A DNA stretch of 34,362 nucleotides from Singulisphaera sp. (GTDB lineage: Bacteria > Planctomycetota > Planctomycetia > Isosphaerales > Isosphaeraceae): NCBI GenBank assembly GCA_027451445.1, contig DAIDJG010000077.1, positions 1-34,362 of the forward strand, given 5' to 3'. The notes beneath the pieces were generated by a model that did not search any database, was not told where the DNA came from, and saw only the letters and a list, made by a program, of their open reading frames with translations. Both the position numbers and the translations under genes were made by a program. This document shows positions 583 to 24,040 of the stretch, piece by piece (positions within the stretch are counted from its first letter, which is position 1; each line of letters opens with the position of its first letter).

Positions 583-1185
583 TCCCTTGTGAGCTCTTAA
601 CGTATACTCCACCTTGGAAAAAGGTGCAGTCGACAGAACAACCGGAACCCTGTGTGCTTTCCCCAGAGTGAGAGGCGCGTTGGGATGCGTCTGCGTGCGG
701 TGATCGGCAAAGCCGTGCTGATTCTGCTGACCCTCCGGATGGTCGCGGCGCCGCTGGCCCTGCGCCCTGAATCGCCCGTTCATCATCCCAACTACCGGTT
801 GACCGTTCGGATTTGCGCCTGGCCCGCACAACACGCTTGCGGGAGCCATGTTCCTTCATTTTTGGTGCCGACACCTGGCAGAAAGGGCCTTGAAGGATTC
901 CGCCTCTTCGACCTGCGGCGACAGAGGTTGTCCCGGGAGTCTGTGGCGCACCAAAACCCTTGCCTGCGCACTGACTCCGGCGACGGCTCGTTGTCCGGAC
1001 AACTCACGAGTTGTCTGCGCTGCTGAGCGCTCCATCGTCAGTTCCCCCCCCATCCTCCTCTCCCACGCCTGACGGTCACGCGACCCAACACTGATCAGTG
1101 TGTGCGTTCCGCTCGTTCGTCGCAATCCACGACGTCCCCTATGCATTCTTTCCCGCCCGCCGACTCGCATGATGGAGCCGACCTG
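583..1185 (+). other. Intergenic region upstream of the first RND pump, no confident gene
   Basis: Several overlapping open frames occur on both strands here, but none combines a good ribosome site with a recognisable protein. Visible features are a small hairpin at 610-626 (CACCTT, five-base loop, AAGGTG) and a perfect 14-base palindrome at 1088-1101. The ribosome site of the pump (GGAG at 1174-1177) lies at the right-hand end. Confidence 0.5.
1088..1101. promoter_or_regulatory. Perfect 14-bp palindrome, candidate operator
   Basis: ACACTGATCAGTGT reads the same on both strands and lies 84 bases before the pump start codon. Its size and symmetry fit a dimeric repressor site of the kind that often controls efflux genes, but no regulator gene is present in the window and the site is not repeated before the second pump. 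The role is an inference. Confidence 0.3.
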
Positions 1186-4100
1186 ATGAATGGTCTGATA
1201 CGAGCCTCCCTACGGAACCCTTACGCCGTCACGGTGTTTTGCCTCACGCTCGTGATGCTCGGCACGGTTTCGATCATGGGGATCCCGATTGATATCTTGC
1301 CGGTATTCAAGAGTCCGGCGGTCCAGGTGCTCACGTTCTACGGCGGTATGCCGGCGGCGAGCGTTGAGAAGGACATCACGAACCGAATGGAACGGTGGGT
1401 CGGCCAGGCCAACGGCACGTCCCGCCAGGAATCGCGCTCGATCATCGGTGCCAGCGTCGTGCGCGACTACTTCCGGAGCGGAGTCGATCCCAACGGTGCG
1501 TTGACGCAGGTGAACTCGCTTGCATTGGCGGCCGTACCGAACCTCCCGCCCGGCACGCTCCCGCCGGTCGTGCTTCCGTTTGACCCAACGAGCACGACAC
1601 CCGTCTGCATCGTGGCGGTCGACAGTCCGTCGGGCGAACAAAACGAGTCGATCCTCTATGACGTGGGGCGATATGAAGTCCGCAACATGATCATGAGCCT
1701 CAACGGTGCCGTGGCGCCGGTTGTCTACGGAGGCAAGATTCGCGCCGTCATTGCGTATCTCGACCGCCAGAAGCTGGAAGCGCGCCGGCTGTCGCCGCTC
1801 GACGTGATGAAGGCGATGGACAACTACAACGTCTTTCTCCCGACCGGCGACGCGAAGATCGGCGACATCGACTTCGCGCTCGACTCGAATTCGATGTTCG
1901 ACTACCCGATGGACATGGGCGACATCCCGCTTCACTCCACGATCGGCAACGTGTCGTTTCTGCGGGACGTTGCGGTGACTCAGGACGCCGCGTTCATTCA
2001 GACCAACGTCGTGCGCATCGACGGCAAGAAAGAAGTGTACATCCCCGTCTTCCGCCAGCTCGGCTCGAGTACCCTGGCCGTCGTCAACAGCGTACGTGAC
2101 TCACTCACGGAATTCACCGGCCGTTTGACCCGCAGCGGCATCCAACTGAAGCTCGTGATGGACCAGTCGATCTTCGTGCGGCAGGCCATTTCCAGCCTTG
2201 TCCAGGAGGGCGTGCTCGGCGCTATCCTTTGCTCGTTGACGATCTTGATGTTTCTCGGCGAGTGGCGAATGACGGCGATCGCGGTCATGACCTTGCCGAT
2301 CTCCGTGCTTTCAGCGTGCATTTGTCTGTACGCCGTGGGCCAGACGATCAACGCGATGACGCTGGCGGGCTTGACGCTCGCGATTGGGCCGATGATCGAC
2401 AGCGCCATCATTTGCCTGGAGAACACGCACCGGCACCTCGGCCTGGGTGCGAGCCCCAAGGAAGCCGCCTTCCTCGGCGCGAGCGAAGTGGCGATGCCGG
2501 AGCTGGTGTCGACCCTTTGCACGTTCCTCGTGCTGGCGCCTCTGGCCCTCATGCCGGGCATGGGCGAGTTCCTCTTCATGCCGATGACCATGGCGGTGTG
2601 CTTCGCCATGTGCTCGGCCTACATCCTCTCGCGAACCCTGGTGCCCGCCTGTAGCGCGGCCTGGCTGAAGGGCCACGGTCACGGCCATGGCGGTGAACAC
2701 GGAAGCGAAGGGGGAAGCGAGCACGAGGGTCACGGCGATGGCAATGGTCATGAGCGCCGTCCTGGAGCCATCGCGCGCGCTTTCAAGCGTTGGGAGCAAA
2801 TCGTCGACCGCCTGTTTGCCGGTTATGCCAACTGGCTGGCGGTCGTGCTGCGGCACCGGGTGCTGACGGTTTGCGTCGGCTTCGGCTTGTTCATCGTGAC
2901 GGTAGGTTTCTTGTGGCCGATCATGCGCCGGGAGTTCTACCCCGACGTGGATGCGGGCGCCTTCGAGATGTACGTCCGGGCCCCGAGCGGTACCCGTATT
3001 GAAAAGACCGAAGAGCGGGTCGAACAGGTCGAGAAGTTCATCAGAAAAACGATCCCGGGAGGCTGCAAGCTGCGTTGGATGCCTTCCGTGCGCCTGGCCA
3101 GCGACATTCCGGCCAAGGGCGAGAGCCTGATGATCCTGGCGTCGGTGGATCACGTCCTCCACATCCGCATTTTCGACGCCGAAGGCAAACAGGTTGTCGA
3201 CACGGATGAGAGCAAGCTCGCCCAGTATTCTGGGCAAATCAAGGAGGTCAAGGAGGAGCTCAAGGCGTCTGAAGGCGAGCACGAGATGAACGAGGAGAAG
3301 GAGGACGAGATCACCCATAAGGTGGCGTCGATGGTGAATTACACCATTCCGCCGCACGACTTGCAGCTCATCATCTCCGAGCTGGGCGTCAACGCCGACT
3401 GGTCGGCAGCGTACACGCCGAACTCTGGCCCGATGGATGCGGTGATCAAGGTCCAGCTCACCGAGCACCGCACGCGCTCAGCCCAGGAATACGTACACCT
3501 GGTGCGAATGGGAGTGGCGAAGGACCCGCGGTTCAACGACATGGACTTCGGGTTCGACGCCGGCGGCCTGATCCGAGGCGCCATGAACGAGGGTAAGTCG
3601 ACGCCGATCAACATCCGCGTCACTGGCAAGAAGCAGAAGGAGGCGCGGGCGATCGCCGAGCTGATCCGCGCCCGTTGCGTCAAGATCAACGGCGTGGTCG
3701 ACGCGCGCATCATTCAGCGGCTCGACTACCCTGAGTACATGATCAACGTCGACCGCGCCAAGGCGGCGGATATGGGTCTGACTCAGGAAGAGGTCATGAA
3801 GAACGTGGTGGCCGCGTTCAACTCGAGCATTCAGTTCAACAAGCGCAACTTCTGGATCGACCCGATCGGCGGCAATCAGTACTTCGTGGGCGTGCAGTAC
3901 CCCGAGAACGACATCAAGTCGGTCGAGACCCTCTTGAACATCCCGATCACCGGCTCGGGCACGAACAAGGACAGGATCATCCCCTTGAGCAACCTGATCA
4001 GCCTGACCAGAACGACCGTGCCGACGGAAGTGACCCACCAGAACATCCAGCCGACGATCGACCTGTCCATGGGCGTCTACGGCCGGGACCTGGGGCACAT

Positions 4101-4863
4101 TTCCGACGACGTCTTCAAGGCGATCGACGCGGTCGGCGACCGGCAGGACGACGGCTCGTGGGCGCCTTACGATCCGGCGAGCAAGGGGGGCAAAAAGAAG
4201 CACCTCGTGGGCGCCAAGATCGTGCTCAGCGGCGAGTACGTCAAGATGCAGGATACGTTCCGCGACCTCGGGTTCGGGCTCGTCGGCGCGTCGGTGCTGA
4301 TCTACTTCCTGATGGTCGGCCTCGACAAGTCATGGGTCGTGCCTTTGACGGTCATGTCGATCTTGCCGCTCTGCTTGGTCGGGATTTTGCCGGGCCTGTA
4401 TCTGTCAGGCACAGCCATCAACGTGCAGTCGTTGCTCGGGTTCATCTTCGTCGTGGGCATCAAGGTTGCAAACACGGTGTTGATGACCGACTTCGCGCAG
4501 GAACTGCGGCATGCGGAGGGGTTGACCCCGACGCAAGCGATCTTCAAGGCGGCGTCCATTCGCGTCAAACCGGTGACGATGACCGCCGTGGCGGCCTTCT
4601 TCGCTCTGATCCCAGGCGCCATGGCGCTCGAACGTGGTAGCGAGGCGAACGCCCCGCTCGCTCGTGCGATCCTTGGCGGACTGCTGGCCGGCGAGCCCGC
4701 GACCCTGTTCGTGCTCCCATGCATCTACTCGCTGCTGGTCCGTGATAAGCCTGGAGCACATGGCCACGGGGAACACACCGAGGGTGACGGTCATGGCCCC
4801 GGCGGCGATGACTACGATGACTCGGACAAGTCGCATGACGAAATTCCCGAGTCGCTCCGCTAA
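1186..4863 (+). CDS. RND efflux pump permease with His-rich loops and a periplasmic insertion (system 1)
   Basis: Inner-membrane resistance-nodulation-division transporter of 1225 aa, expected to export substrates by proton antiport as a trimer with an adaptor and an outer membrane factor. The start at ATG 1186 follows GGAG by 8 bases and aligns with the start of the second pump in the window (MNGLIRASLRNP against MRGLIRASLLNP). TM1 is at about residues 10-32, TM2-TM6 about 340-485, TM7 about 550-570 and TM8-TM12 from about 1030. TM4 carries a single aspartate, D405, in IGPMIDSAIICLEN, where AcrB has two. TM10 reads GIKVANTVLMTDF. A His-rich cytoplasmic loop (residues about 496-524, seven His) lies between TM6 and TM7 and a second His/Asp-rich stretch forms the C-terminus. 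Residues 625-724 are absent from the paralogue. Pump identity is secure; the substrate is unknown, and the His content only suggests metal. Confidence 0.95.
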   Translation: MNGLIRASLRNPYAVTVFCLTLVMLGTVSIMGIPIDILPVFKSPAVQVLTFYGGMPAASVEKDITNRMERWVGQANGTSRQESRSIIGASVVRDYFRSGVDPNGALTQVNSLALAAVPNLPPGTLPPVVLPFDPTSTTPVCIVAVDSPSGEQNESILYDVGRYEVRNMIMSLNGAVAPVVYGGKIRAVIAYLDRQKLEARRLSPLDVMKAMDNYNVFLPTGDAKIGDIDFALDSNSMFDYPMDMGDIPLHSTIGNVSFLRDVAVTQDAAFIQTNVVRIDGKKEVYIPVFRQLGSSTLAVVNSVRDSLTEFTGRLTRSGIQLKLVMDQSIFVRQAISSLVQEGVLGAILCSLTILMFLGEWRMTAIAVMTLPISVLSACICLYAVGQTINAMTLAGLTLAIGPMIDSAIICLENTHRHLGLGASPKEAAFLGASEVAMPELVSTLCTFLVLAPLALMPGMGEFLFMPMTMAVCFAMCSAYILSRTLVPACSAAWLKGHGHGHGGEHGSEGGSEHEGHGDGNGHERRPGAIARAFKRWEQIVDRLFAGYANWLAVVLRHRVLTVCVGFGLFIVTVGFLWPIMRREFYPDVDAGAFEMYVRAPSGTRIEKTEERVEQVEKFIRKTIPGGCKLRWMPSVRLASDIPAKGESLMILASVDHVLHIRIFDAEGKQVVDTDESKLAQYSGQIKEVKEELKASEGEHEMNEEKEDEITHKVASMVNYTIPPHDLQLIISELGVNADWSAAYTPNSGPMDAVIKVQLTEHRTRSAQEYVHLVRMGVAKDPRFNDMDFGFDAGGLIRGAMNEGKSTPINIRVTGKKQKEARAIAELIRARCVKINGVVDARIIQRLDYPEYMINVDRAKAADMGLTQEEVMKNVVAAFNSSIQFNKRNFWIDPIGGNQYFVGVQYPENDIKSVETLLNIPITGSGTNKDRIIPLSNLISLTRTTVPTEVTHQNIQPTIDLSMGVYGRDLGHISDDVFKAIDAVGDRQDDGSWAPYDPASKGGKKKHLVGAKIVLSGEYVKMQDTFRDLGFGLVGASVLIYFLMVGLDKSWVVPLTVMSILPLCLVGILPGLYLSGTAINVQSLLGFIFVVGIKVANTVLMTDFAQELRHAEGLTPTQAIFKAASIRVKPVTMTAVAAFFALIPGAMALERGSEANAPLARAILGGLLAGEPATLFVLPCIYSLLVRDKPGAHGHGEHTEGDGHGPGGDDYDDSDKSHDEIPESLR
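3058..3357 (+). other. 100-codon in-frame insertion inside the RND pump
   Basis: Hand alignment with the pump at 16046-19411 runs without a gap up to residue 624 and resumes at residue 725 (DLQLIISELG against DLKLIVTEIG). The extra 100 residues lie in the periplasmic porter region after TM7. They contain a beta-strand-like start, the string RIFDAEGKQVVDTDESKL, then a highly charged helix and the segment ITHKVASMVNYT. This order resembles, from memory, a short module (RIFD.DGK.VVDTDE...) found as a separate unit in many planctomycete hypothetical proteins. The gap in the alignment is seen directly; the module identity is recollection. Confidence 0.75.
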
Positions 4864-5134: not shown

Positions 5135-6583
5135 ATGCCCGTGACTACCGCCATAAATACTCATGCCCCGACCGCTCCTGCCAAACGGGGCACCTGGGGG
5201 CGAGTTGCCCTACTCGTTCTGCTCCTCGCCGTTGCTGGAGGAGGCTTTGCCGCCTGGCGCACGCTTAAGAACGGGGCCAACGCCGCCGGCCACACGACGG
5301 TCGCCACCGAGGGATCCGCATCCGAACCCTCGAGCGATACCGCTGTCCCCGTCGAAGTTACCCGTTTGAGCAAGGGCGGGATCATGCGAACATCCCGGCA
5401 GATCGGCTCGGTCCATGCCTATGAGCGCGCCGACCTCTACGCCAAAATATCGGGTTATCTCGACAAACTTCTGGTCAACTACGGCGACAAGGTGAAGAAG
5501 GGCCAGCTCCTGGCCGTGATTGACGACCCCGAGATTTTGGCGGACGCCGAGAAGGCAAAGGCCGACGTCACTCAGGCGAAGGCCGCTGTCGAGCAGGCCA
5601 AGCAGTTCATCAAAGCCGCGGAAGCGGAACACAAGGCAACCGCCGCGGCAGTGGATCAGGCGAAAGCCGAAGTCGACCGTTACGCCGCGATGAGGAGTTA
5701 CCACAAGAAGAAACTGGATCGATACAAGGAACTTGTCGTCAAGTCCGCCATTCCTCAAGAAATTGCCGACGAGGAGCAGGAGAGTTACGACTCGGCCGTG
5801 GCGAACGAAAATGCCTCCAGGAAGACCGTGCTCAAGACCGAGGCCGACCTCATTGCGTCGGCCGCGCGGGTGAAGAAGGCCGAGGCCGACCTGGAAGAGG
5901 CCAAGGCCAGCCAGGCTGTGGCAGAGGCAAAGAAGGTGCGGGCCGACGTGTTCGTCGCCTACACCCAGATCCTGTCCCCCTATGACGGGGTGATCACCAA
6001 GCGCAACTTTTTCCGAGGGGCCTTCATCCGATCGGCCGCGGATGGGGGGACGGACCCGCTGCTCTCGGTAGCCTATGTCGACAAGGTCTTCGTCGTCACC
6101 GACATCCCCGACCGTGACGTGCCGTTCACCGATGTCGGCGACGCGGCGGAGATTACCCTCGACGCCCTCGGCACGCAGGTGTTCAAGGGCAAGGTTTCCC
6201 GGTTCGCGGACGCGGAAGACAAAGACTCGCGCACCATGCACACCGAAATCGACCTACCGAATCCGGATGGGCGGCTGAAGCCGGGCATGTACGGGGTGGC
6301 CAAGGTCTTCCTCGGCGTGGACATGGTGGCTTCAACGATCCCGTCGAAGTGTCTCGTCGGGGCATCGCAAGGCGGGAAGGCCGACGTCCTTATCGTCAAG
6401 GACGGAAAGGCGAAAAAGACCCGCGTTGAGGTTGGGACCGACGATGGGCTGCGCGTGGAAATCCGTCAGGGACTGACGCCGCAGGACGACGTCATCGTGA
6501 GCATCGGTTCGGTGACCGACGGCACGCCTGTCCAGCCAACCCAGGCGGGTACGCAGGTGAAGGCTGCGCAAGCGGGAGATTGA
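5135..6583 (+). CDS. RND periplasmic adaptor (membrane fusion protein, HlyD/AcrA type), system 1
   Basis: Adaptor of 482 aa that would bridge the pump and outer membrane factor in the periplasm. The N-terminus has a short cytoplasmic tail and one membrane anchor (about residues 22-42). A lipoyl-type half motif follows (YAKISGYLDKLLVNYGDKV, about 107-125), then a long Ala/Lys/Glu-rich alpha-hairpin (about 140-270), the second lipoyl half near YTQILSPYDGVI and a beta-barrel region with DIPDRDVPFTDVGD. The C-terminal part matches the membrane-proximal domain. The ribosome site GGAGG (5127-5131) is only 3 bases from ATG 5135 and 9 bases from an in-frame GTG at 5141, which may be the true start. 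It follows the pump in the same direction, the reverse of the usual adaptor-pump order. The adaptor at 14304-15752 is its paralogue. Confidence 0.93.
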   Translation: MPVTTAINTHAPTAPAKRGTWGRVALLVLLLAVAGGGFAAWRTLKNGANAAGHTTVATEGSASEPSSDTAVPVEVTRLSKGGIMRTSRQIGSVHAYERADLYAKISGYLDKLLVNYGDKVKKGQLLAVIDDPEILADAEKAKADVTQAKAAVEQAKQFIKAAEAEHKATAAAVDQAKAEVDRYAAMRSYHKKKLDRYKELVVKSAIPQEIADEEQESYDSAVANENASRKTVLKTEADLIASAARVKKAEADLEEAKASQAVAEAKKVRADVFVAYTQILSPYDGVITKRNFFRGAFIRSAADGGTDPLLSVAYVDKVFVVTDIPDRDVPFTDVGDAAEITLDALGTQVFKGKVSRFADAEDKDSRTMHTEIDLPNPDGRLKPGMYGVAKVFLGVDMVASTIPSKCLVGASQGGKADVLIVKDGKAKKTRVEVGTDDGLRVEIRQGLTPQDDVIVSIGSVTDGTPVQPTQAGTQVKAAQAGD

Positions 6584-8871: not shown

Positions 8872-10503
8872 ATGGGTGGGACTCGAGCTTTCAGCGCGAT
8901 CGCGATCCTATCTCTCCTCGGTGCACTCTCTGTGCCGCCGCGGCGGGCGGTCGCCGAAGATGCTCGGCCGGCGCAGGCCGCTATTCCGCGACCCCCGCAA
9001 GTCAATCCGTCCGCCGAGGAGCGGCCGGCTCCGCCAACGCACGCGCTGCTGTCCGAGGAGGTTCGGCCCATCGACCTGGCGACGGCACTCCGGCTCGCGG
9101 GCGTGCAAAACCCCGAGCTGAATGTGGCTCGGCAGGTTGTGCTGGAAGCCGTGGCGGCGCGACAGCTCGCGGCGGCCCACTTCCTCCCCAGCCTGAACAC
9201 CGGAGCCGGCTACGATGCCCACGCCGGGACGCTCCAGCAGTCGAACGGCAACATCCTGTCCGTGAATCGCAGTTCCGTCTATGTCGGCGCCGGGAGTTAT
9301 GCCGTCGCGGCGGGGACGGTGGCGATTCCGGGCGTCGTGCTTCAGGGGAATACAGCCGAGCTGCTCTACGGATACCTCGTGAGCCGCCAAGTCGTCCGGC
9401 AGCAGGAGTTCGCCGCCGAAGCGACGCGCAACGATGTGCTTCTGCGTGTTGCCCTCGCCTATTGCGAGCTCATCCGGGCCGAGGGCCGGCGTCTCGTTTG
9501 GGAAGAGACCATCAACGATGCGAAGGAAGTGGCCCGAATCACCGGCCAGTACGCCCGCACCGGCCAGGGACGGCAGGCCGACGCCGACCGGGCTCGCACG
9601 GAGCTCTACCGCAGGCAGGCCGACCTACGCAAGGCGGAAGGCGAAGTTTTGATTGCATCCGCGCAACTGTGCAAGCTTTTGAACCTCGATCCCTCGATCC
9701 GACTTCACCCCACCGACGCCTACGCCGTGCCAATGCCGATCGTTCCCGAGCCGATCCCCCTGGCGGAGCTGATCGCTGTCGCATTGCTGAGGCGACCGGA
9801 GATGGGGGAGCGGCGGACCGTGGTGCGCGAGGCGCTGCTGGCGCTCGACGGGGCCAGGGCGCTGCCGTTTTCGCCGAGCGTGCTGGTCGGTTTCAGCTCC
9901 GGCGGGTTTGGCGGCGGCAGTAACCTCGTACGCCCGGTCTTCGGCGGGTTCGGCGGCCGGAGCGACTTCGACGCGATCGCTTACTGGACACTGCGCAACC
10001 TCGGCGTGGGGAACGTTGCCTTGATTCGGGGGGCGACGGCGGCGACGCGCGTCGCCCAGTTCCAGGAGCTGGCAATGCTCGACCAAGTCCGCGACGAGGT
10101 AGCCGAGGCGTATGCCTCGACCCACGCCCGGTTCGCCGAGATCGGCGAGGTCGAGGAGGCTGTCCGCTCCGGGATGGAGGGTTACCGTCTCGACCTGGAG
10201 CGTAGCCGGCAGGGCGTGCCCGGCGAGGGTCTGAACCCACGGCCAATCGAGGTCTTGAACAGCCTGAACCTACTCTATCGCTCCCGGATCGAATACCTCG
10301 ACGCAATCGTTGACTACAACCAGGCCCATTTCCGCCTCTACGTCGCCCTGGGCCAACCACCGGCCGCCGCGCTCGCCCGAGCGGCCCCGATGCCCGACCA
10401 GAAACCGCCGAGCGCGAAGCCCGACAACCCCTCGTCCCACCCGCCTGCGCCACCAACGACCGCAGCGCCGTTGCCCTTCGGCCCATCGCGCGATCGTCGC
10501 TGA
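8872..10503 (+). CDS. TolC-family outer membrane factor, type A (system 1)
   Basis: A 543-aa outer membrane channel subunit that would receive substrates from the pump-adaptor complex. ATG 8872 follows AGGGAGG by 4 bases. The N-terminus is a Sec signal (about residues 1-28, ending AVA before ED). Two TolC-type repeats follow: in the first, PIDLATALRLAGVQNPEL, FLPSLNTGAGYDAH and long helices; in the second, LPFSPSVLVGFSSGGFGGG, then YWTLRNLGVGN and helices. The C-terminal 45 residues are Pro-rich. It is closely similar to the factor at 22307-24040 and less so to its own downstream neighbour. The next gene begins 19 bases later on the same strand, so the two are probably co-transcribed. Confidence 0.93.
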   Translation: MGGTRAFSAIAILSLLGALSVPPRRAVAEDARPAQAAIPRPPQVNPSAEERPAPPTHALLSEEVRPIDLATALRLAGVQNPELNVARQVVLEAVAARQLAAAHFLPSLNTGAGYDAHAGTLQQSNGNILSVNRSSVYVGAGSYAVAAGTVAIPGVVLQGNTAELLYGYLVSRQVVRQQEFAAEATRNDVLLRVALAYCELIRAEGRRLVWEETINDAKEVARITGQYARTGQGRQADADRARTELYRRQADLRKAEGEVLIASAQLCKLLNLDPSIRLHPTDAYAVPMPIVPEPIPLAELIAVALLRRPEMGERRTVVREALLALDGARALPFSPSVLVGFSSGGFGGGSNLVRPVFGGFGGRSDFDAIAYWTLRNLGVGNVALIRGATAATRVAQFQELAMLDQVRDEVAEAYASTHARFAEIGEVEEAVRSGMEGYRLDLERSRQGVPGEGLNPRPIEVLNSLNLLYRSRIEYLDAIVDYNQAHFRLYVALGQPPAAALARAAPMPDQKPPSAKPDNPSSHPPAPPTTAAPLPFGPSRDRR

Positions 10504-15766: not shown

Positions 15767-16045
15767 GGAGTTCGGTTCGATCGTCCAACGCCAATCCTCG
15801 GCGTTTCTCCAGCGGCTCTCCCCGGAGCTCGGCTCGCTGACTCATCGCTACGGGACGAGTCTGGAACTCCGGTTCCCAGATTGATCAAGCAAGCCATGTG
15901 CCACGACGAATGACGATGTGATCCTGCGACCAGATTAAGAAGTAAATTCCTCTTCTCGGCTCAGGGTTTGCTGGCCGATCGGTCGTGGTCTCACTGCCGC
16001 GTCGTTCGCGTCCGTGCCGCGCTCGTGCCTGAGCCGGAGGAAATC

Positions 16046-19000
16046 ATGAGAGGACTGATCCGCGCTTCGCTGCTCAACCCCTGGGCCGTGACCGTTTTCG
16101 CGCTGACGATCTTGGTGCTTGGCGGCTTGAGCCTCACGCAGATCCCGGTCGATATCCTGCCTGTCTTCAAGAGCCCCGCGGTGCAGGTGCTGACCTTCTA
16201 TAGCGGCATGCCCCCGCGCGACGTCGAACGTGACATCACCAACCGCATCGAGCGCTGGACCGATATCGCGTCGGGGCTTCAGCGGCAGGAATCGCGGTCG
16301 ATTCTGGGAACGAGCATCGTCCGCAACTACTTCTACAGCGACATCGATCGGGGCGAAGCGCTCTCCTCGGTTCTCTCCCTGGCGCAATCGGTCGTGCCAC
16401 AGATGCCTCCGGGGACACTTCCGCCGGTCGTCATTCCGTTTGACCCCACGGCGACAACCCCCATATGCCTCGTCGCCGTGAACGGGGCGAAAGCCGGTTA
16501 CGGCGAGAAGACGCTCTACGACGTCGGCCGGTACGAGGTCCGGAATAAGATCATGGAGATCCGCGGCGCGGTCTCGCCTGTGGTCTTCGGCGGCAAGATC
16601 CGTGCGGTGCAGGTCTATCTGGACCGCGAACGGATGATGGCACGCAACCTCTCGCCTGTTGACGTTCTGGAGGCCGTCCAGAACTCGAACGTCTTCCTGC
16701 CGACGGGCGAGGCGATCGTGGGCGAGCGCGATTACTTTCTCAACAGCAATGCCCTCTTCGAGAAGATCCCCGATATGGGGCAGATTCCCTTGCGCACCGA
16801 GGCCGGGAACCGCGCCTACGTGCGCGATGTGGCGACACCCACCGACGACGCCATGATCCAGACCACGATCGTGCGGGTCGAAGGGAAGAAGCAGGCGTAT
16901 GTGCCGGTCTTCCGCCAGACGGGCGCAAGCACGTTGAGCATTATCCAGCAGCTCAAGGCGAAGCTCCCATCCATCCCCAGCCAGCTTTCCAAGTCGGGGA
17001 TTGGTCTCGACCTCATCATGGACCAGTCGGTTTATGTGAAGCAATCGATCTCGAGCCTGGCGACCGAGGGCATCCTGGGCGCAGTCCTCTGCTCGCTGGT
17101 GATTCTGCTGTTCCTGGGTCGCTGGCAGATGACAATGATCGCGATCCTGACAATCCCGCTGTCGATTCTGTCGGCGGTCGGGATTCTCTACGCTCTTGGG
17201 CAGACGATCAACGTGATGACGCTCTCGGGTCTCGCGATGGCGATCGGGCCGATGGTCGACAGTGCCATCATCAGCCTCGAGAACATTGACAGCCATCTGG
17301 AGAAGGGGGCCAAGCTCCGCCGTGCGGCGCTCGATGGGCCGGCCGAAGTGGCGCTGCCGGAACTGGTGGCCAACGTCAGTACCCTCCTGGTGCTCGCACC
17401 ACTTGCGCTGATGCCCGGCTCGGGATCGTTTCTGTTCCGGCCGATGGCCATGGCGATCGCCTTCGCGATGGCGACGGCCTACATGCTCTCGCGAACCTTC
17501 GTCCCGGCCCGTGCCGCAGGCTGGCTACCCGAGACAAAGGAGGCCGGCGGATCGAAGCGGAGCCAGAACCCGATTGCGCGCGCGTTCGCACGCTGGCAAA
17601 AAACGATTGAAGCGGGCGTCGCGTGGTATTCCCGGCGCCTTGACTGGGTTCTCGATCATCGCTGGCTCGTCGTCATTGCCTCGTTCGGGGCCCTCTTGCT
17701 CGTGGTTGCGGTCCTCGTTGAGCCGCTTCGCCGTGAGTTTTTCCCCCAGGTCGATGCCGGGGCTTTTGAGATTTACGTCCGCGCCCCGAGTGGCACGCGA
17801 CTGAAGGTCACCAACGAGCGTCTCGCGGAGGTCGAGCAATTCCTCCGCCGCGAGATTCGCAAAACGGACCTCAAGCTGATCGTGACCGAGATCGGGGTCA
17901 CGCCCGACCTCTCCTCGGCCTACACCGTGAACCAGGCGAAGATGGACGCGATCGTTCGCGTCCAGCTTACCGAGGACCGGAAGAAGGGCTCCTACCAGTA
18001 CACCGATGAGCTTCGGAAGTCCTTTGCGCGCGACCCGCGGTTCGCCGACCTGGAGATCGCCTTCAACGCGGGGGGCTTGATCCTCAGCGCACTCAACCAG
18101 GGACAGACCGCGCCGATCAACGTGCGCGTCACCGGCAAGCACATCCACGAGTCGCACGAGGTTGCCGAGCAGATCCGCCGCAAGGTGGCGAACATTCCCG
18201 GCGTGGTCGACGCGCGGATCCTCCAGCGGCTCGATTACCCCGAGTACCTCGTCGAAGTCGATCGCGTCAAAGCCGCCGACCTGGGATTGACTCAGCAAGA
18301 GGTCATGCAGTGCGTCATCGGGGCCTTCAATTCGAGCATTCAATACAACAAGAAGAACTTCTGGATCGATCGGGAGAACGGCAACCAGTATTTCGTGGGC
18401 GTCCAGTATCCTCAGGCGAGCATCCAGACCCTCGAGGCGCTCCTGAACGTGCCGATCACCGGCGTGAACCAGACCAAGTTCGACCGCCGCATCGCCGATA
18501 ACAGTCGGATTCCCCGCGTTGCGCAACCCGTGATGGAGGGCTCGCCCGAGCGGCGGACGCCCGTTCTCCTCAGCAGCCTGATCACACTCAAGCGGAGCAC
18601 CATCCCGACCGAGATGACCCACCTGAACATCATGCCGACCGTCGACCTCAACATCGGCGTTTCGGGTCGCGACCTGGGGCATGTGGCGGCCGACGTTTAC
18701 AAGGTCGTCGATCGCTTCGGCAAGCTCAAGAAAAACGCGTCCTCAGGCAGTGAACGGGAAGGAACGAGCTGGGATGCCTACGACCCGTCGGCAACGGACC
18801 ACCGTCTTCTGGAAGGGACGAACATCATCCTCAGCGGTGAGTATTCGCGCATGGAGAAAACTTTCCGCGACCTGGCGATCGGCCTCATCCTGGCCGTGGT
18901 CATGGTCTACTTCCTCATGGTCGCGCTGGACAAGTCGTACATCGTTCCGCTCGCGAATATGATGGTCGTCCCCCTCGTGTTGATCGGCATCATGCCCATG

Positions 19001-19411
19001 CTTTACCTGACCGGGACGTCGATCAACGTCCAGTCGCTCCTGGGGCTGATCTTCACCGTGGGAATCAAGGTTTCGGCCACGGTTCTGTTGACGGACGTTG
19101 CCCAGGAGCTGCGCAAGAAGGAGGGATTATCGCCGATCGAAGCCGTCCGCAAGGCGGGCGCAATGCGGGCCCGGCCGATCGTGATGACGGCGCTCGCGGC
19201 GTTCTTCGCGATGATCCCCTCCGCGCTCGCCCTGGAGAAAGGGAGCGAGGCCAATGCCCCGCTTGGCCGCGCCATCCTCGGGGGACTGCTTATCGGCACG
19301 CCCGCCACGCTGTTCGTCGCGCCGGCCCTTTACGCGCTGATGGTCCGAGGCGAACACGTTGAGCCTGAGGATCCGGAGACCCTCCCTGAAACGCCGGAAG
19401 GCGCTGAATGA
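16046..19411 (+). CDS. RND efflux pump permease (system 2)
   Basis: Inner-membrane RND transporter of 1121 aa, paralogous along its length to the pump at 1186-4863. ATG 16046 follows GGAGG by 6 bases. TM1 is near residues 10-32, TM2-TM6 about 340-485, TM7 about 535-555 and TM8-TM12 from about 950. TM4 carries a single aspartate, D405, in IGPMVDSAIISLEN; TM10 reads GIKVSATVLLTD, with its only lysine (K1008) two residues before the AcrB position. It has neither the His-rich loop nor the 100-residue insertion of pump 1, but it has a short extra stretch near SRIPRVAQPVMEGSPERRT in the second periplasmic half. Together these suggest different substrate ranges for the two systems. The divergent adaptor is next to it and a small secreted protein gene follows 133 bases downstream. 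Confidence 0.95.
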   Translation: MRGLIRASLLNPWAVTVFALTILVLGGLSLTQIPVDILPVFKSPAVQVLTFYSGMPPRDVERDITNRIERWTDIASGLQRQESRSILGTSIVRNYFYSDIDRGEALSSVLSLAQSVVPQMPPGTLPPVVIPFDPTATTPICLVAVNGAKAGYGEKTLYDVGRYEVRNKIMEIRGAVSPVVFGGKIRAVQVYLDRERMMARNLSPVDVLEAVQNSNVFLPTGEAIVGERDYFLNSNALFEKIPDMGQIPLRTEAGNRAYVRDVATPTDDAMIQTTIVRVEGKKQAYVPVFRQTGASTLSIIQQLKAKLPSIPSQLSKSGIGLDLIMDQSVYVKQSISSLATEGILGAVLCSLVILLFLGRWQMTMIAILTIPLSILSAVGILYALGQTINVMTLSGLAMAIGPMVDSAIISLENIDSHLEKGAKLRRAALDGPAEVALPELVANVSTLLVLAPLALMPGSGSFLFRPMAMAIAFAMATAYMLSRTFVPARAAGWLPETKEAGGSKRSQNPIARAFARWQKTIEAGVAWYSRRLDWVLDHRWLVVIASFGALLLVVAVLVEPLRREFFPQVDAGAFEIYVRAPSGTRLKVTNERLAEVEQFLRREIRKTDLKLIVTEIGVTPDLSSAYTVNQAKMDAIVRVQLTEDRKKGSYQYTDELRKSFARDPRFADLEIAFNAGGLILSALNQGQTAPINVRVTGKHIHESHEVAEQIRRKVANIPGVVDARILQRLDYPEYLVEVDRVKAADLGLTQQEVMQCVIGAFNSSIQYNKKNFWIDRENGNQYFVGVQYPQASIQTLEALLNVPITGVNQTKFDRRIADNSRIPRVAQPVMEGSPERRTPVLLSSLITLKRSTIPTEMTHLNIMPTVDLNIGVSGRDLGHVAADVYKVVDRFGKLKKNASSGSEREGTSWDAYDPSATDHRLLEGTNIILSGEYSRMEKTFRDLAIGLILAVVMVYFLMVALDKSYIVPLANMMVVPLVLIGIMPMLYLTGTSINVQSLLGLIFTVGIKVSATVLLTDVAQELRKKEGLSPIEAVRKAGAMRARPIVMTALAAFFAMIPSALALEKGSEANAPLGRAILGGLLIGTPATLFVAPALYALMVRGEHVEPEDPETLPETPEGAE

Positions 19412-20499: not shown

Positions 20500-22230
20500 C
20501 TAACGCTTCGCGGCTACCGCGGTGCGGGCAGCTAGTGGAGGCAAGGGGGGGGCGGCGACTGGTGCCGCGGGCAGCGGCGCGTTGGCCGACTCGCCCAATG
20601 GCGGCGGCGAGCCGAGCGCCACGAACAGTCGCATCTCGGCCTTGTTGTAGTCGGTCACCGCATGGATGCGAGCGGCTCTCGCTTGGTTCAACAGTTGTAA
20701 GCTGTTGACGACTTCGAGCGGCCGCCCAACCGTATTGCGGATGCGTTCCAGGTCTTCGCGGAAGCCTGCCTCGGCGCTACGGAGCTGCCTGGCGGTGATT
20801 TCCACCTGGCGCCGCGCTGCGTCGACCTCGGCAAGAGCCTCCGCGACTTGCGTCCGGATCTCGGCGATCGTGCGCGATTGTTCGCCGACAGCCTGGCCCA
20901 ATTCGGCCAGGCGTTCTCTCTGGCGCGCGATGTTGCCCATGCCGAAGTTCTGAACCGTCCAGAACGCGATGACGTCAAAATCGGTGCGGCCGGCGAAGTT
21001 GTTGAGCTCGCCGCCAGTGAGGTTGCTACCCCCACCGAACGCGCCCGCGCTGAAGCCCACCTGGATCGTCGGCAGAAACGGACGATAGATTTCCTGTCGA
21101 TGCCGGACCTCCGCCCTGGCGATTTCTGCGGCCCGTGCCCCGACCTCGGGACGGCCTCGCAACGCGATCTCGATCAAGCTGGGCAAGGCCAGGGAGGGCT
21201 CAACGATCGTGATCGGCTCGAATGCGGGTGAGGCAGGGTGCAGCCGGACGGCCTGGTCGAGGTGGAGCCTTTGGGCCAGCCGCGCGGAGGCAACCGCCAC
21301 CCCTTCCTCGGCTTGCCGCACTTCGTCGACGACCAGGCTGAGTTCGGTGAGCGCTCGTTTGGCGTCGGCCTCGCGTCCCTGCTGCGCGTTCGCGTAGGAA
21401 CGAGTCAGACGGGCGACTTCCGCTTCCTGCTCCGCCGACTGGCGGCGGATTTGCAGGTCGGCTTCGGCAGCCAGCAGGTTAAAGTGCAGTTCGGCCACCT
21501 CGAGCAGGATGTTATTAGCCGTCGCCGACGCGCTGAAGCGAGCGCCTTCCACTTGCTGTCGAGCCGCCAGCGGCTCAAAGATGGCATCGGTCAAGGCGCT
21601 GAAGACGTTCACGGCGGGAATCGCGATCGTCCCTGCGGTGACGGCCCCTGAGCCGCCGCCAAAGTACAGGGCCTGTTTATTCAGATCCAGGATGCGTCCC
21701 GAGGACCGTTGAAGGTCGCCCGTGTGCCCACTATAGCTCATGCCGGCGTTGAGCGAGGGGAGAAGCAAGGCCCGCGCTCCTTGCAGGACGGCCAGCGCCT
21801 CGCCGATGCGTTGACGGGCCTGGGCGATCAGCGGGTTCTCGACCTCGGCGAGCCGCAACGCGGTCGTCAGGTCGATCGGGTATTCCTGGACCGGCGGAGG
21901 GATCACCGGCTCTCCGAATCGCAAGGCATTGGCCGGGATTGGCTCTGCCGCAGTGCGGACAACGCCGGCATCGCCGGTCCTGGGCGGGCTCGCTTCGGCT
22001 GTTTGAGGTTGGTAATTTCCCGGCGGTGGGGCCGGGCTGAGTTCCGCCTGGTCCAGCGTCTCCTGGGAGGTGGAAGACGTGTCGCGAGGCGTATCCGTGG
22101 AAGCCCAGCGCGGTTTCGTCGCGGCCGTACAACCCGACAGCAGTGCTGTGAACAGGAGCAAAGCGTGGAGGAGTGCCGGGGAACGTCCCCAGTCTGGTCC
22201 CCAGCCGCCCCATCGTATCCGTGTCGCCAT
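20500..22230 (-). CDS. TolC-family outer membrane lipoprotein, type B (system 2)
   Basis: A 576-aa outer membrane factor. ATG 22230 follows GGGAGGAG by about 10 bases. A lipoprotein signal ends in the lipobox LLSGC (C34), followed by a linker of about 80 residues. The channel core begins EYPIDLTTALRLAEVENPL and shows LPSLNAGMSYSGHTGD in the first barrel pair, then FLPTIQVGFSAGAFGGG and FWTVQNFGMGN in the second, with long helices between. The C-terminus is Pro/Ala-rich. It is most like the type B lipoprotein at 10523-12643 but lacks that gene's repeat insertion and C-terminal extension. It begins 76 bases after the type A factor on the same strand. Confidence 0.93.
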   Translation of the reverse strand: MATRIRWGGWGPDWGRSPALLHALLLFTALLSGCTAATKPRWASTDTPRDTSSTSQETLDQAELSPAPPPGNYQPQTAEASPPRTGDAGVVRTAAEPIPANALRFGEPVIPPPVQEYPIDLTTALRLAEVENPLIAQARQRIGEALAVLQGARALLLPSLNAGMSYSGHTGDLQRSSGRILDLNKQALYFGGGSGAVTAGTIAIPAVNVFSALTDAIFEPLAARQQVEGARFSASATANNILLEVAELHFNLLAAEADLQIRRQSAEQEAEVARLTRSYANAQQGREADAKRALTELSLVVDEVRQAEEGVAVASARLAQRLHLDQAVRLHPASPAFEPITIVEPSLALPSLIEIALRGRPEVGARAAEIARAEVRHRQEIYRPFLPTIQVGFSAGAFGGGSNLTGGELNNFAGRTDFDVIAFWTVQNFGMGNIARQRERLAELGQAVGEQSRTIAEIRTQVAEALAEVDAARRQVEITARQLRSAEAGFREDLERIRNTVGRPLEVVNSLQLLNQARAARIHAVTDYNKAEMRLFVALGSPPPLGESANAPLPAAPVAAPPLPPLAARTAVAAKR

Positions 22231-22306
22231 CGACCCGATCCTCCTCCCGATCAGAGCCTCTGCGTCTCGATTTGGTACCGTTCCGTGGACCAACATTACA
22301 GGAGAA

Positions 22307-24040
22307 TCAGGCAGCGGGCCTGAGGGGGGAAGGGGAAGGCGGGGGAATCGGTTGCCGGTTCGTGCTCCCCAGCGGGCCGGGGCCTGGCACCGGCTGCGGG
22401 TTCGCGGGCCGCGGTGCGGGCCCCGGCCCCGGAACGTCGCCCCGGATCACCAGCGGCTGACCCGGCGGAGTGATTCCCTCGACCGGTGCCGGACGCGCGA
22501 GCGTATCGGCGGGTGGCTGTCCGAGCGCCACGAAGAGCTCGAATTGGGCGCGGTCGTAGTCAATGATCGAATCCAGGTAGGCGTAGCGAGCCCGAGCGAG
22601 CAGATCGAGACTGTCCACCGTTTCGATCGCCGGGGCGACCGAGTGTTGAATGCGGATCAAGTCCTCGCGGAACCCCTCGGTGCCGCTCCGGACCGCAAGC
22701 TCGGACGTCCCGATCCGGGCGTATCGTGCGTGTGTCTTGGCATAGGCCTCGGCCACCTCAGCCCGGACCGCGTCGAGAACAGCGATCTCCTCGTAACGTG
22801 TCAGTCCGAGACGCGCTCTCGCGACGTTGATCAAGGCCGCATTGCCCACGCCCATGTTTTGAAGCGTCCAGTACGCCATGAAGTCGACATCCGACCGGCC
22901 GCCAAAACCGCCGAAGACGGGCCGGACGAGATTGCTGCCGCCGCCGAAACCGCCTGAGCTGTACCCGATCAAGATCGTGGGGGAGAACGGAAGGGCCCTT
23001 GCCCCTTCAAGTATGTAGAAAGCTTCCTGGATCGCGGCGCGACGCTCCTTGAGCTCGGGTCGTTGCAGCAGTGCCAGCGCGATCAACTCGCTGACCGAGG
23101 TCGGGTCGGGCACAATCGGGTGGGGCACAACGAACGCGTCGGTCGGGTGAAGACGGATCGAGGGATCGAGGTTCAATACGTTGCACAGCCGCGCAGACGA
23201 CGTGAGGACGAACTCCTCCGCAGCCTGCAACTGGTTCTCGCGCTCTTCCAGTTCCGTCTGAGCACGATGGGCGTCCGCCTTCCGGCCCTGGCCGGCGTTG
23301 GCGTAAGCCGCGGTCAAGTCCGCGACCTTTTTGGCCTCTTCCCGCACCTGGATCGCCACCGCTCGCCGGCCTTCGGCGCGAAGTAGCTCGGAGTAGGCTA
23401 AGGTCGTGCGCAAAAACGTCTGGTTCCGCATCGCGTCCGTGGCGAAATGACGCACCGCGACAAACTGCCGCGCGGCCAGGTAGCCAAACACTAGCGCGGC
23501 GGCGTTCCCATTGAGGTAGACCCCGGGTACATCGACCGTGCCGGCTGCGATAGCACCCGAGCCCGCCCCCACGTACACGGCCGAACGCTGGACAGATAGG
23601 ATGTTGCCGTTGGACTGTTGCAAGTTGCCCGTGTGACTGTCGTAGTTCGCACCGACGTTGAGCGATGGCAGGAACTGCGCGGCCGCGAGCTGTCGCAGCG
23701 CGGCGGCCTCGACCAGACGCTGGCGAGCGATCATGAGCTGAGGGTTCTGCACTCCCGCCAGCCGCAGGGCGGTATTCAGATCGATCGGCCGGACCTCCGG
23801 CGCCAAGAGCGTCGGAGGCGACGCCGGGGTTGTGACGATCCCGCTGGCGCCGCCGCGATCGATCGGTCGACTGGCCGCTTGATTGGCACGATTGCTCCCA
23901 TCGGGAACGATCGCTGGTGGCCTCGGGACGGGCATTGCCGCTGGGAGCGCGGGCGCAGGCTGGGCAGCGGCGAGCCCCCCCCAACTCCAACCCGCCAGCG
24001 CAGCAGTTCCTAACACTATGAGGCTTCTGAATCTGTCCAT
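22307..24040 (-). CDS. TolC-family outer membrane factor, type A (system 2)
   Basis: A 577-aa channel subunit. ATG 24040 has GGGGAGAG about 9 bases upstream. A Sec signal covers about residues 1-26 (LIVLGTAALAGWSWGGLAAA before QPAP), followed by a Pro-rich spacer. The two TolC repeats start with PIDLNTALRLAGVQNPQL and with LPFSPTILIGYSSGGFGGG; the second barrel pair ends in YWTLQNMGVGN. The tail is strongly Pro/Gly-rich. It is very similar to the factor at 8872-10503: VRPIDL, LQQSNGNILSV and LVRPVFGGFGGRSD are shared. It is the first gene of the system 2 factor pair and is divergent from the TPR gene at 24925. Confidence 0.93.
   Translation of the reverse strand: MDRFRSLIVLGTAALAGWSWGGLAAAQPAPALPAAMPVPRPPAIVPDGSNRANQAASRPIDRGGASGIVTTPASPPTLLAPEVRPIDLNTALRLAGVQNPQLMIARQRLVEAAALRQLAAAQFLPSLNVGANYDSHTGNLQQSNGNILSVQRSAVYVGAGSGAIAAGTVDVPGVYLNGNAAALVFGYLAARQFVAVRHFATDAMRNQTFLRTTLAYSELLRAEGRRAVAIQVREEAKKVADLTAAYANAGQGRKADAHRAQTELEERENQLQAAEEFVLTSSARLCNVLNLDPSIRLHPTDAFVVPHPIVPDPTSVSELIALALLQRPELKERRAAIQEAFYILEGARALPFSPTILIGYSSGGFGGGSNLVRPVFGGFGGRSDVDFMAYWTLQNMGVGNAALINVARARLGLTRYEEIAVLDAVRAEVAEAYAKTHARYARIGTSELAVRSGTEGFREDLIRIQHSVAPAIETVDSLDLLARARYAYLDSIIDYDRAQFELFVALGQPPADTLARPAPVEGITPPGQPLVIRGDVPGPGPAPRPANPQPVPGPGPLGSTNRQPIPPPSPSPLRPAA

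Follow-up and report, generated by a model that had tools for sequence, protein, structure and literature searches.

In-frame insertion of a small recurrent protein module in an RND efflux pump of Singulisphaera

The inserted pump and its empty orthologues

The window, the whole 34,362-nucleotide stretch of Singulisphaera DNA that was analyzed, contains two paralogous RND efflux permease genes, one of which carries an additional in-frame segment (Table 1). Adaptor and outer membrane efflux protein genes lie near the inserted pump, and two more outer-membrane efflux protein genes are arranged in tandem on the minus strand at 20500-24040. Translation of the inserted pump may instead begin at codon 29, an ATG at nt 1186.

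Table 1. Positions of the pump genes, the insert and neighboring features in the window
Feature	Position	Strand	Basis or remark
RND efflux permease gene carrying the insert	1102..4863	+	longest ORF, 1253 aa; ACR_tran PF00873, 9.2e-164
Left copy of the candidate target repeat, host codons T-I-P (ACGATCCCG)	3049..3057	+	statistically not established
Inserted module, residues 653-750 (294 bp)	3058..3351	+	BLASTP vs paralogue, empty sites, profile
Right copy of the candidate target repeat, codons T-I-P (ACCATTCCG), or alternatively the module's own native tail	3343..3351	+	statistically not established
Periplasmic adaptor (HlyD_D23), downstream of the inserted pump	5135..6583	+	
Outer membrane efflux protein (OEP)	8872..10503	+	
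Paralogous RND permease without the module	15968..19411	+	BLASTP, Pfam
Matching empty site of the paralogue, approximate (codons 630-634)	17855..17869	+	read off the pump/paralogue alignment

Homology to ACR_tran/RND proteins was present on both sides of the insert by Pfam, BLASTP and alignment to AcrB. The BLASTP alignment of the pump with its paralogue was continuous to residue 651, a second piece began at 735, and plain homology resumed from about residue 752. The two proteins can be aligned end to end with a single long insert; shorter gaps lie at a His/Gly-rich loop near residue 525-550 and at a paralogue-only stretch near 960. Profile matches to the insert covered 3061-3351 in one search and 3061-3339 in another. 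By hydropathy, the insert starts about 43 residues past TM7. Residues 40-645 of the pump aligned to residues 9-596 of AcrB chains, with residue 645 at AcrB 596, and counting on from there would place the insertion point at about AcrB residue 602, in PC1 and about 10 residues before the switch loop, which is described as G614-N623 (PMC10924465).

The preliminary description had reported a clean insertion relative to the paralogue, containing the motif LHIRIFDAEGKQVVDTDE, a charged helix and KVASMV, and all of this is borne out. Its coordinates, 3058-3357, have the right start and an end that takes in two host codons (P-H). The residue numbers given there, 625-724, fit a count from the ATG at codon 29, in place of the full-frame numbering of Table 1.

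The pump was matched at E<=1e-200 in 27 of the 45 genomes of the window's family, its own included. Among the matches listed, those reaching the site stopped at 650-653 or started at 744-753, and some others ended earlier (482-553). When 30 loci of the pump were fetched (L057-L086, in which L058 and L085 are the same gene), the module was present in one, the window's own (L057). The 29 other loci lack it, including a same-genus orthologue that is 88% identical. The empty site of that orthologue (L058) reads FIKKTIPKHDLELF, with the junction FIKKTIP/KHDLELF, and the filled site of the window reads FIRKTIP/GGCKLRW...VNYTIP/PHDLQLI, slashes marking the boundaries. The in-frame insert in the window pump is thereby confirmed; the fetched orthologues lack the segment, and in BLASTP it does not align as an ordinary part of the porter domain, so that neither result named as refuting in the preliminary description was seen. 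Between the host pump and the empty orthologue, flank dS was 0.89 on the left and 0.58 on the right, and codons differ synonymously in 346 cases and non-synonymously in 139. Against 11 usable outgroup loci (L060 and L066 being disregarded as wrong-frame reads), the identity of the host pump was near that of the empty orthologue, at 0.80 v 0.85 for the nearest outgroup and within 0.015 for the rest.

A module family within unrelated proteins

The insert belongs to a family of modules of about 94 residues (about 95 in the window segment) that had no match above threshold in Pfam, NCBIfam, PHROG or PDB sequences, and no description of it was recognized in the largely open-access literature searched. 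The window's own genome holds three copies at E <= 10; besides the window insert, one lies in an HAE1-type pump and one in a protein that Pfam does not match. A search with the single query matched 11 of 59 relatives, own genome included, and the profile matched 18 of the 45 genomes of the window's family. Broader draws, whose counts may be low because 13 candidates were scored per genome, gave 28 of 397 genomes in the class, 6 of 392 in the phylum and, in the order to which G445 belongs, 20 of 386. The class count includes the 18 of the window's family and a few from other families, and still contains G442 and a 33-residue match in G051; the phylum count comprises the own genome and G427, which are believable, and four matches judged spurious; the order count includes G445 itself and several weak matches. 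One genome of that order had 12 matches and another 6. Named loci with the module come from Aquisphaera insulae JC669 and from two MAGs, one of Planctomycetota and one titled Akkermansiaceae (in G445), a family belonging to Verrucomicrobiota. The A. insulae locus (L052) and G033, a genome of the window's family, carry the module at an identical contig position, and the window's family is accordingly taken as Isosphaeraceae. The module family thus apparently occurs in Planctomycetia and Verrucomicrobiales, the latter assignment resting on the title of one MAG. A planctomycete module, as first suggested, is consistent with its many planctomycete copies, and its range apparently extends further.

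Sixty copies were assembled, including the short or partial L033, L039, L043, L032, L038 and L220 and omitting seven class loci (L182, L185-L190). Matches in G442, G046 and G042, which share an identical short C-terminal stretch, and in G364, which has stops, were excluded as spurious. In an alignment of 26 copies (A4), residues P, G, R, F and G are near-invariant, and pairwise protein identity has a median of 30% and a maximum of 54%. The window copy was matched by a profile built without it as well as by one including it. A profile of 29 copies from the second order recovered all 31 first-set copies with a worst E of 1.5e-6, in a small set and in a test that is partly circular because those 29 had been found with A4.

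An open frame of at least 60 aa extends on both sides of the module in 56 of the 60 copies; in the remaining four the module lies at a contig end (L035, L220) or near a terminus (L011, L039). The expectation of a stand-alone unit or tail therefore holds for its recurrence and not for its position, since nearly all copies are internal. In L011 (G003), a CHAT-domain protein encoded by a low-GC gene (38%), the module sits at the N-terminus, and in L186, L187 and L188 (G737, G749, G621) it lies near the N-terminus of a conserved protein with a 374-aa open frame. The sole clearly broken copy among the 60, L220:34-398 (G849:C142), has a frame change within the module.

The hosts are diverse, as the claim of a recurrent module had implied, and are recovered by independent profile matches in many unrelated proteins. 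By Pfam, one group comprises RND pumps, a polysaccharide flippase, an ECF sigma factor fusion, a CNT nucleoside transporter, YidC, multicopper oxidase, a CEMIP beta-helix, CHAT, PQQ and WD40 propellers, RoxA-like cytochrome c, kinase-TPR and an alpha/beta hydrolase, and the other GtrA, PPDK_N, PSCyt2/PSD1, an AI-2E transporter and an AAA ATPase; several hosts have no Pfam match. RND pumps were entered at four or more distinct sites: five of 60 fetched pump loci carry the module, at four sites, and visual inspection added a sixth pump, from a different family of the class. Empty orthologues with flank identities of 72-92% were found for the window pump, two HAE1-type pumps and the flippase, and more distant ones (38-70%) for the CNT, YidC and PQQ hosts. 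Judged by eye, no host residue was apparently lost in four close filled and empty pairs (window, L034, L026, L020), and three more distant pairs (L022, L025, L042) are compatible with this, with less certainty.

Two HAE1-type pumps from two genera, L034 (G000) and L026 (G061), carry modules that are 42% identical at the same codon, and a congener of each host is empty (L089, L116). This could reflect two gains, one gain followed by many losses, or transfer between pumps. Two genomes hold 12 copies (G849, L212-L223) and six copies (G962, L224-L229), with six hosts common to both.

Predicted fold, constraint and origin

AlphaFold, applied to four rows of the module alignment, returned a beta4-alpha2 domain with a pLDDT of 87.9 and a pTM of 0.79; this predicts that the module is an independently folding domain with the order beta-beta-beta-beta-alpha-alpha. 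The whole-pump model was of low confidence (mean pLDDT 39.9). Within it, ten-residue blocks of the insert scored 62-86 and showed the strands and helices in unchanged order, and all other blocks scored 61 or less. A PDB sequence search with the module gave a lowest E of 0.091, and Foldseek found no match with E <= 0.001. Assignment to a known fold was rejected, the best Z being 4.6 (rmsd 4.5, 88 aligned) and the SetA, MavC, SH2 and poxin rows being taken as chance. A relationship to the CHASE8 periplasmic sensor domain was suggested by a weak Pfam match of the window copy (E 0.006, 17.2-17.3 bits), but this is under the curated cut-off of 27 bits and was seen at E <= 0.01 in one of 26 copies, and we consider such a relationship very improbable.

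Identity among copies at codon positions 1, 2 and 3 was 47, 56 and 42%, as compared to 29, 26 and 35% expected from composition, and mean GC3 was 0.81 both in the module and in the host frames. Six orthologous pairs, the insertions common to G849 and G962, gave module dN/dS values of 0.09-0.20, and two more distant pairs gave 0.47 and 0.40, all of these being rough because dS values above 1 are saturated. In five of the six G849/G962 pairs the dN of the module was above that of both flanks, and in L217/L225 it was lower. By these estimates the module is seen to be under purifying selection in the six pairs.

Purifying selection and the near-invariant residues would both be expected of a functional accessory domain, one that binds a ligand or partner such as the adaptor, peptidoglycan or lipid and has been recruited to pumps and envelope proteins for its usefulness. 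The many envelope-protein hosts and the repeated occurrence in pumps agree with this. However, hosts such as the AAA ATPase and the CHAT protein have no evident task in common with the others, the module has neither a Foldseek match at E <= 0.001 nor a known ligand, and most fetched orthologues manage without it; we regard recruitment for function as possible, at somewhat less than an even chance. An ancient presence of the module in the pump, followed by its loss elsewhere, could be argued from the multicopper oxidase module common to two families (L027; L182, L189), the WD40 gene module carried by two out of four genomes in a single genus (L037, L030), and the hosts shared by G849 and G962. 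Because all 29 other pump loci are empty, many precise losses would be needed, and the empty sites disfavor this explanation so strongly that we give it hardly any credence.

A further alternative is selfish mobile DNA comparable to Rickettsia palindromic elements or MITEs, in which a trans-acting transposase would move a coding element of about 285 bp whose in-frame copies survive, the peptide being merely tolerated. In-frame hits in unrelated genes speak for it, as do direct and inverted repeats in the flippase host L020:1474-1794 (G026), which of all copies looks most like a transposition scar. The direct repeat, 24 nt long and 75% identical with the core TTTCCGGGGGAG/CTTCCGGGGAAG, flanks this module and is single in the empty gene L117, and a 28-nt, 79% inverted repeat also brackets it; none of 3000 shuffles attained the 20-nt inverted match of 16 seen in L020, although this is the best of 19 copies. 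Candidate 9-bp repeats agree at 7/9 positions in both the window and YidC. Permutation tests covered 23 and 28 copies for duplications, and 19 and 28 for inverted repeats. The first set gave p = 0.024 for 6-mer direct repeats and p = 0.02 for inverted ones, but 0.064 for 9-mers and 0.39 for 12-mers, and the second set gave 0.07, 0.27 and 0.085 for direct repeats and 0.56 for inverted ones. Neither kind of repeat was upheld as a general rule, the signal across all copies being weak in the first set and missing from the second. The inverted repeats of the window copy and L026 are not placed at the ends, the window copy has no special hairpin (z = -0.99; 18 of 100 shuffles fold as well), no intergenic copy was recognized among the copies met, short of a systematic search, and one copy is frame-shifted (L220). 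Moreover, the low dN/dS is unexpected for junk, and when the 29 second-set copies are compared outside the hosts they have in common, the longest DNA matches are 72% over 209 nt and 67% over 179 nt. We therefore consider selfish DNA rather unlikely. Co-occurrence of prolines left and right of the module, examined by eye in 23 pairs, was not convincing.

In our judgment the most probable course, and one that we hold with good confidence, is that a self-folding module of about 94 residues has been repeatedly inserted in-frame into unrelated proteins of Planctomycetia and apparently Verrucomicrobiales, and entered the window pump after the split from its congener, where it was tolerated and then came under purifying selection. 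In-frame relatives inside dozens of unrelated proteins give the module the look of a wandering protein part. Entry would have been into a helix-to-strand loop of the PC1 porter subdomain. The module may have been tolerated because it folds on its own, with the pump presumably continuing to work around it, and once inserted it would have been kept by purifying selection, either on the fold alone or on a surface function. Counted against this account are the draft assemblies G000 and G001, with estimated contamination of 4.8% and 10%. An insertion younger than the genus split, under the constraint measured, should also still resemble its source, and no such copy was found: the closest of 66 other copies is 37% identical to the window insert over at least 60 columns, leaving no close donor, and the single-query search gave a short match of 45% over 56 residues. 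Neither viral_contigs, plasmids nor phages contained a match that would indicate a phage or plasmid carrier, and no PHROG matched at E <= 0.01.

More tentatively, the module may be a transferable domain cassette, a DNA unit with one foldable domain that passes from species to species across at least two phyla, lands in-frame, is selected for its own fold in the host and has a large unsampled pool, so that almost every new copy is unlike those known. If so, the cassette would be a mobile element whose selected unit is a tolerated protein fold. Domain insertion is usually regarded as an uncommon event tied to particular hosts; in this case conserved machines, among them YidC, RND pumps, a flippase and a nucleoside transporter, have accepted a single small fold, and empty sister sites date some of the insertions. 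These provide a natural experiment on where proteins tolerate new domains and how bacterial domains are shuffled, and a domain family missing from the libraries searched can now be recognized by annotators.

Comparison with known insertions

Inteins have Cys or Ser as their first residue and end in His-Asn followed by Cys, Ser or Thr. The window insert does not fit this pattern, as it begins G-G-C and ends T-I-P/P. The host pump resembles AcrB/MdtB-type RND permeases as a member of the ACR_tran family, and it is the inserted module that lacks a PDB sequence match. Lineage-specific insertion domains of RNA polymerase, described as several domain types in one enzyme, are similar in placing a folded domain within a conserved protein (PMC11515920). 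They differ in that the present case involves one family, dozens of unrelated hosts and low copy number.

Rickettsia palindromic elements (RPEs) are described as palindromic sequences of about 105-150 bp with stem-loops, found also in intergenic regions and RNA genes (PMC2229807, PMC10969869). The module and the reading frames of RPEs or intragenic MITEs are alike as in-frame coding insertions into many unrelated genes that stay open. Unlike RPEs as so described, the module is about 285 bp long (294 bp in the window) with a predicted folded domain, lacks a special hairpin in the window copy, and was recognized in no copy between genes; its copies are typically 30% identical as protein, are constrained at the protein level and apparently span two phyla. 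The module thus resembles RPEs in its landing sites, departs from them in size and, for the window copy, in the hairpin, and behaves as a constrained protein domain.
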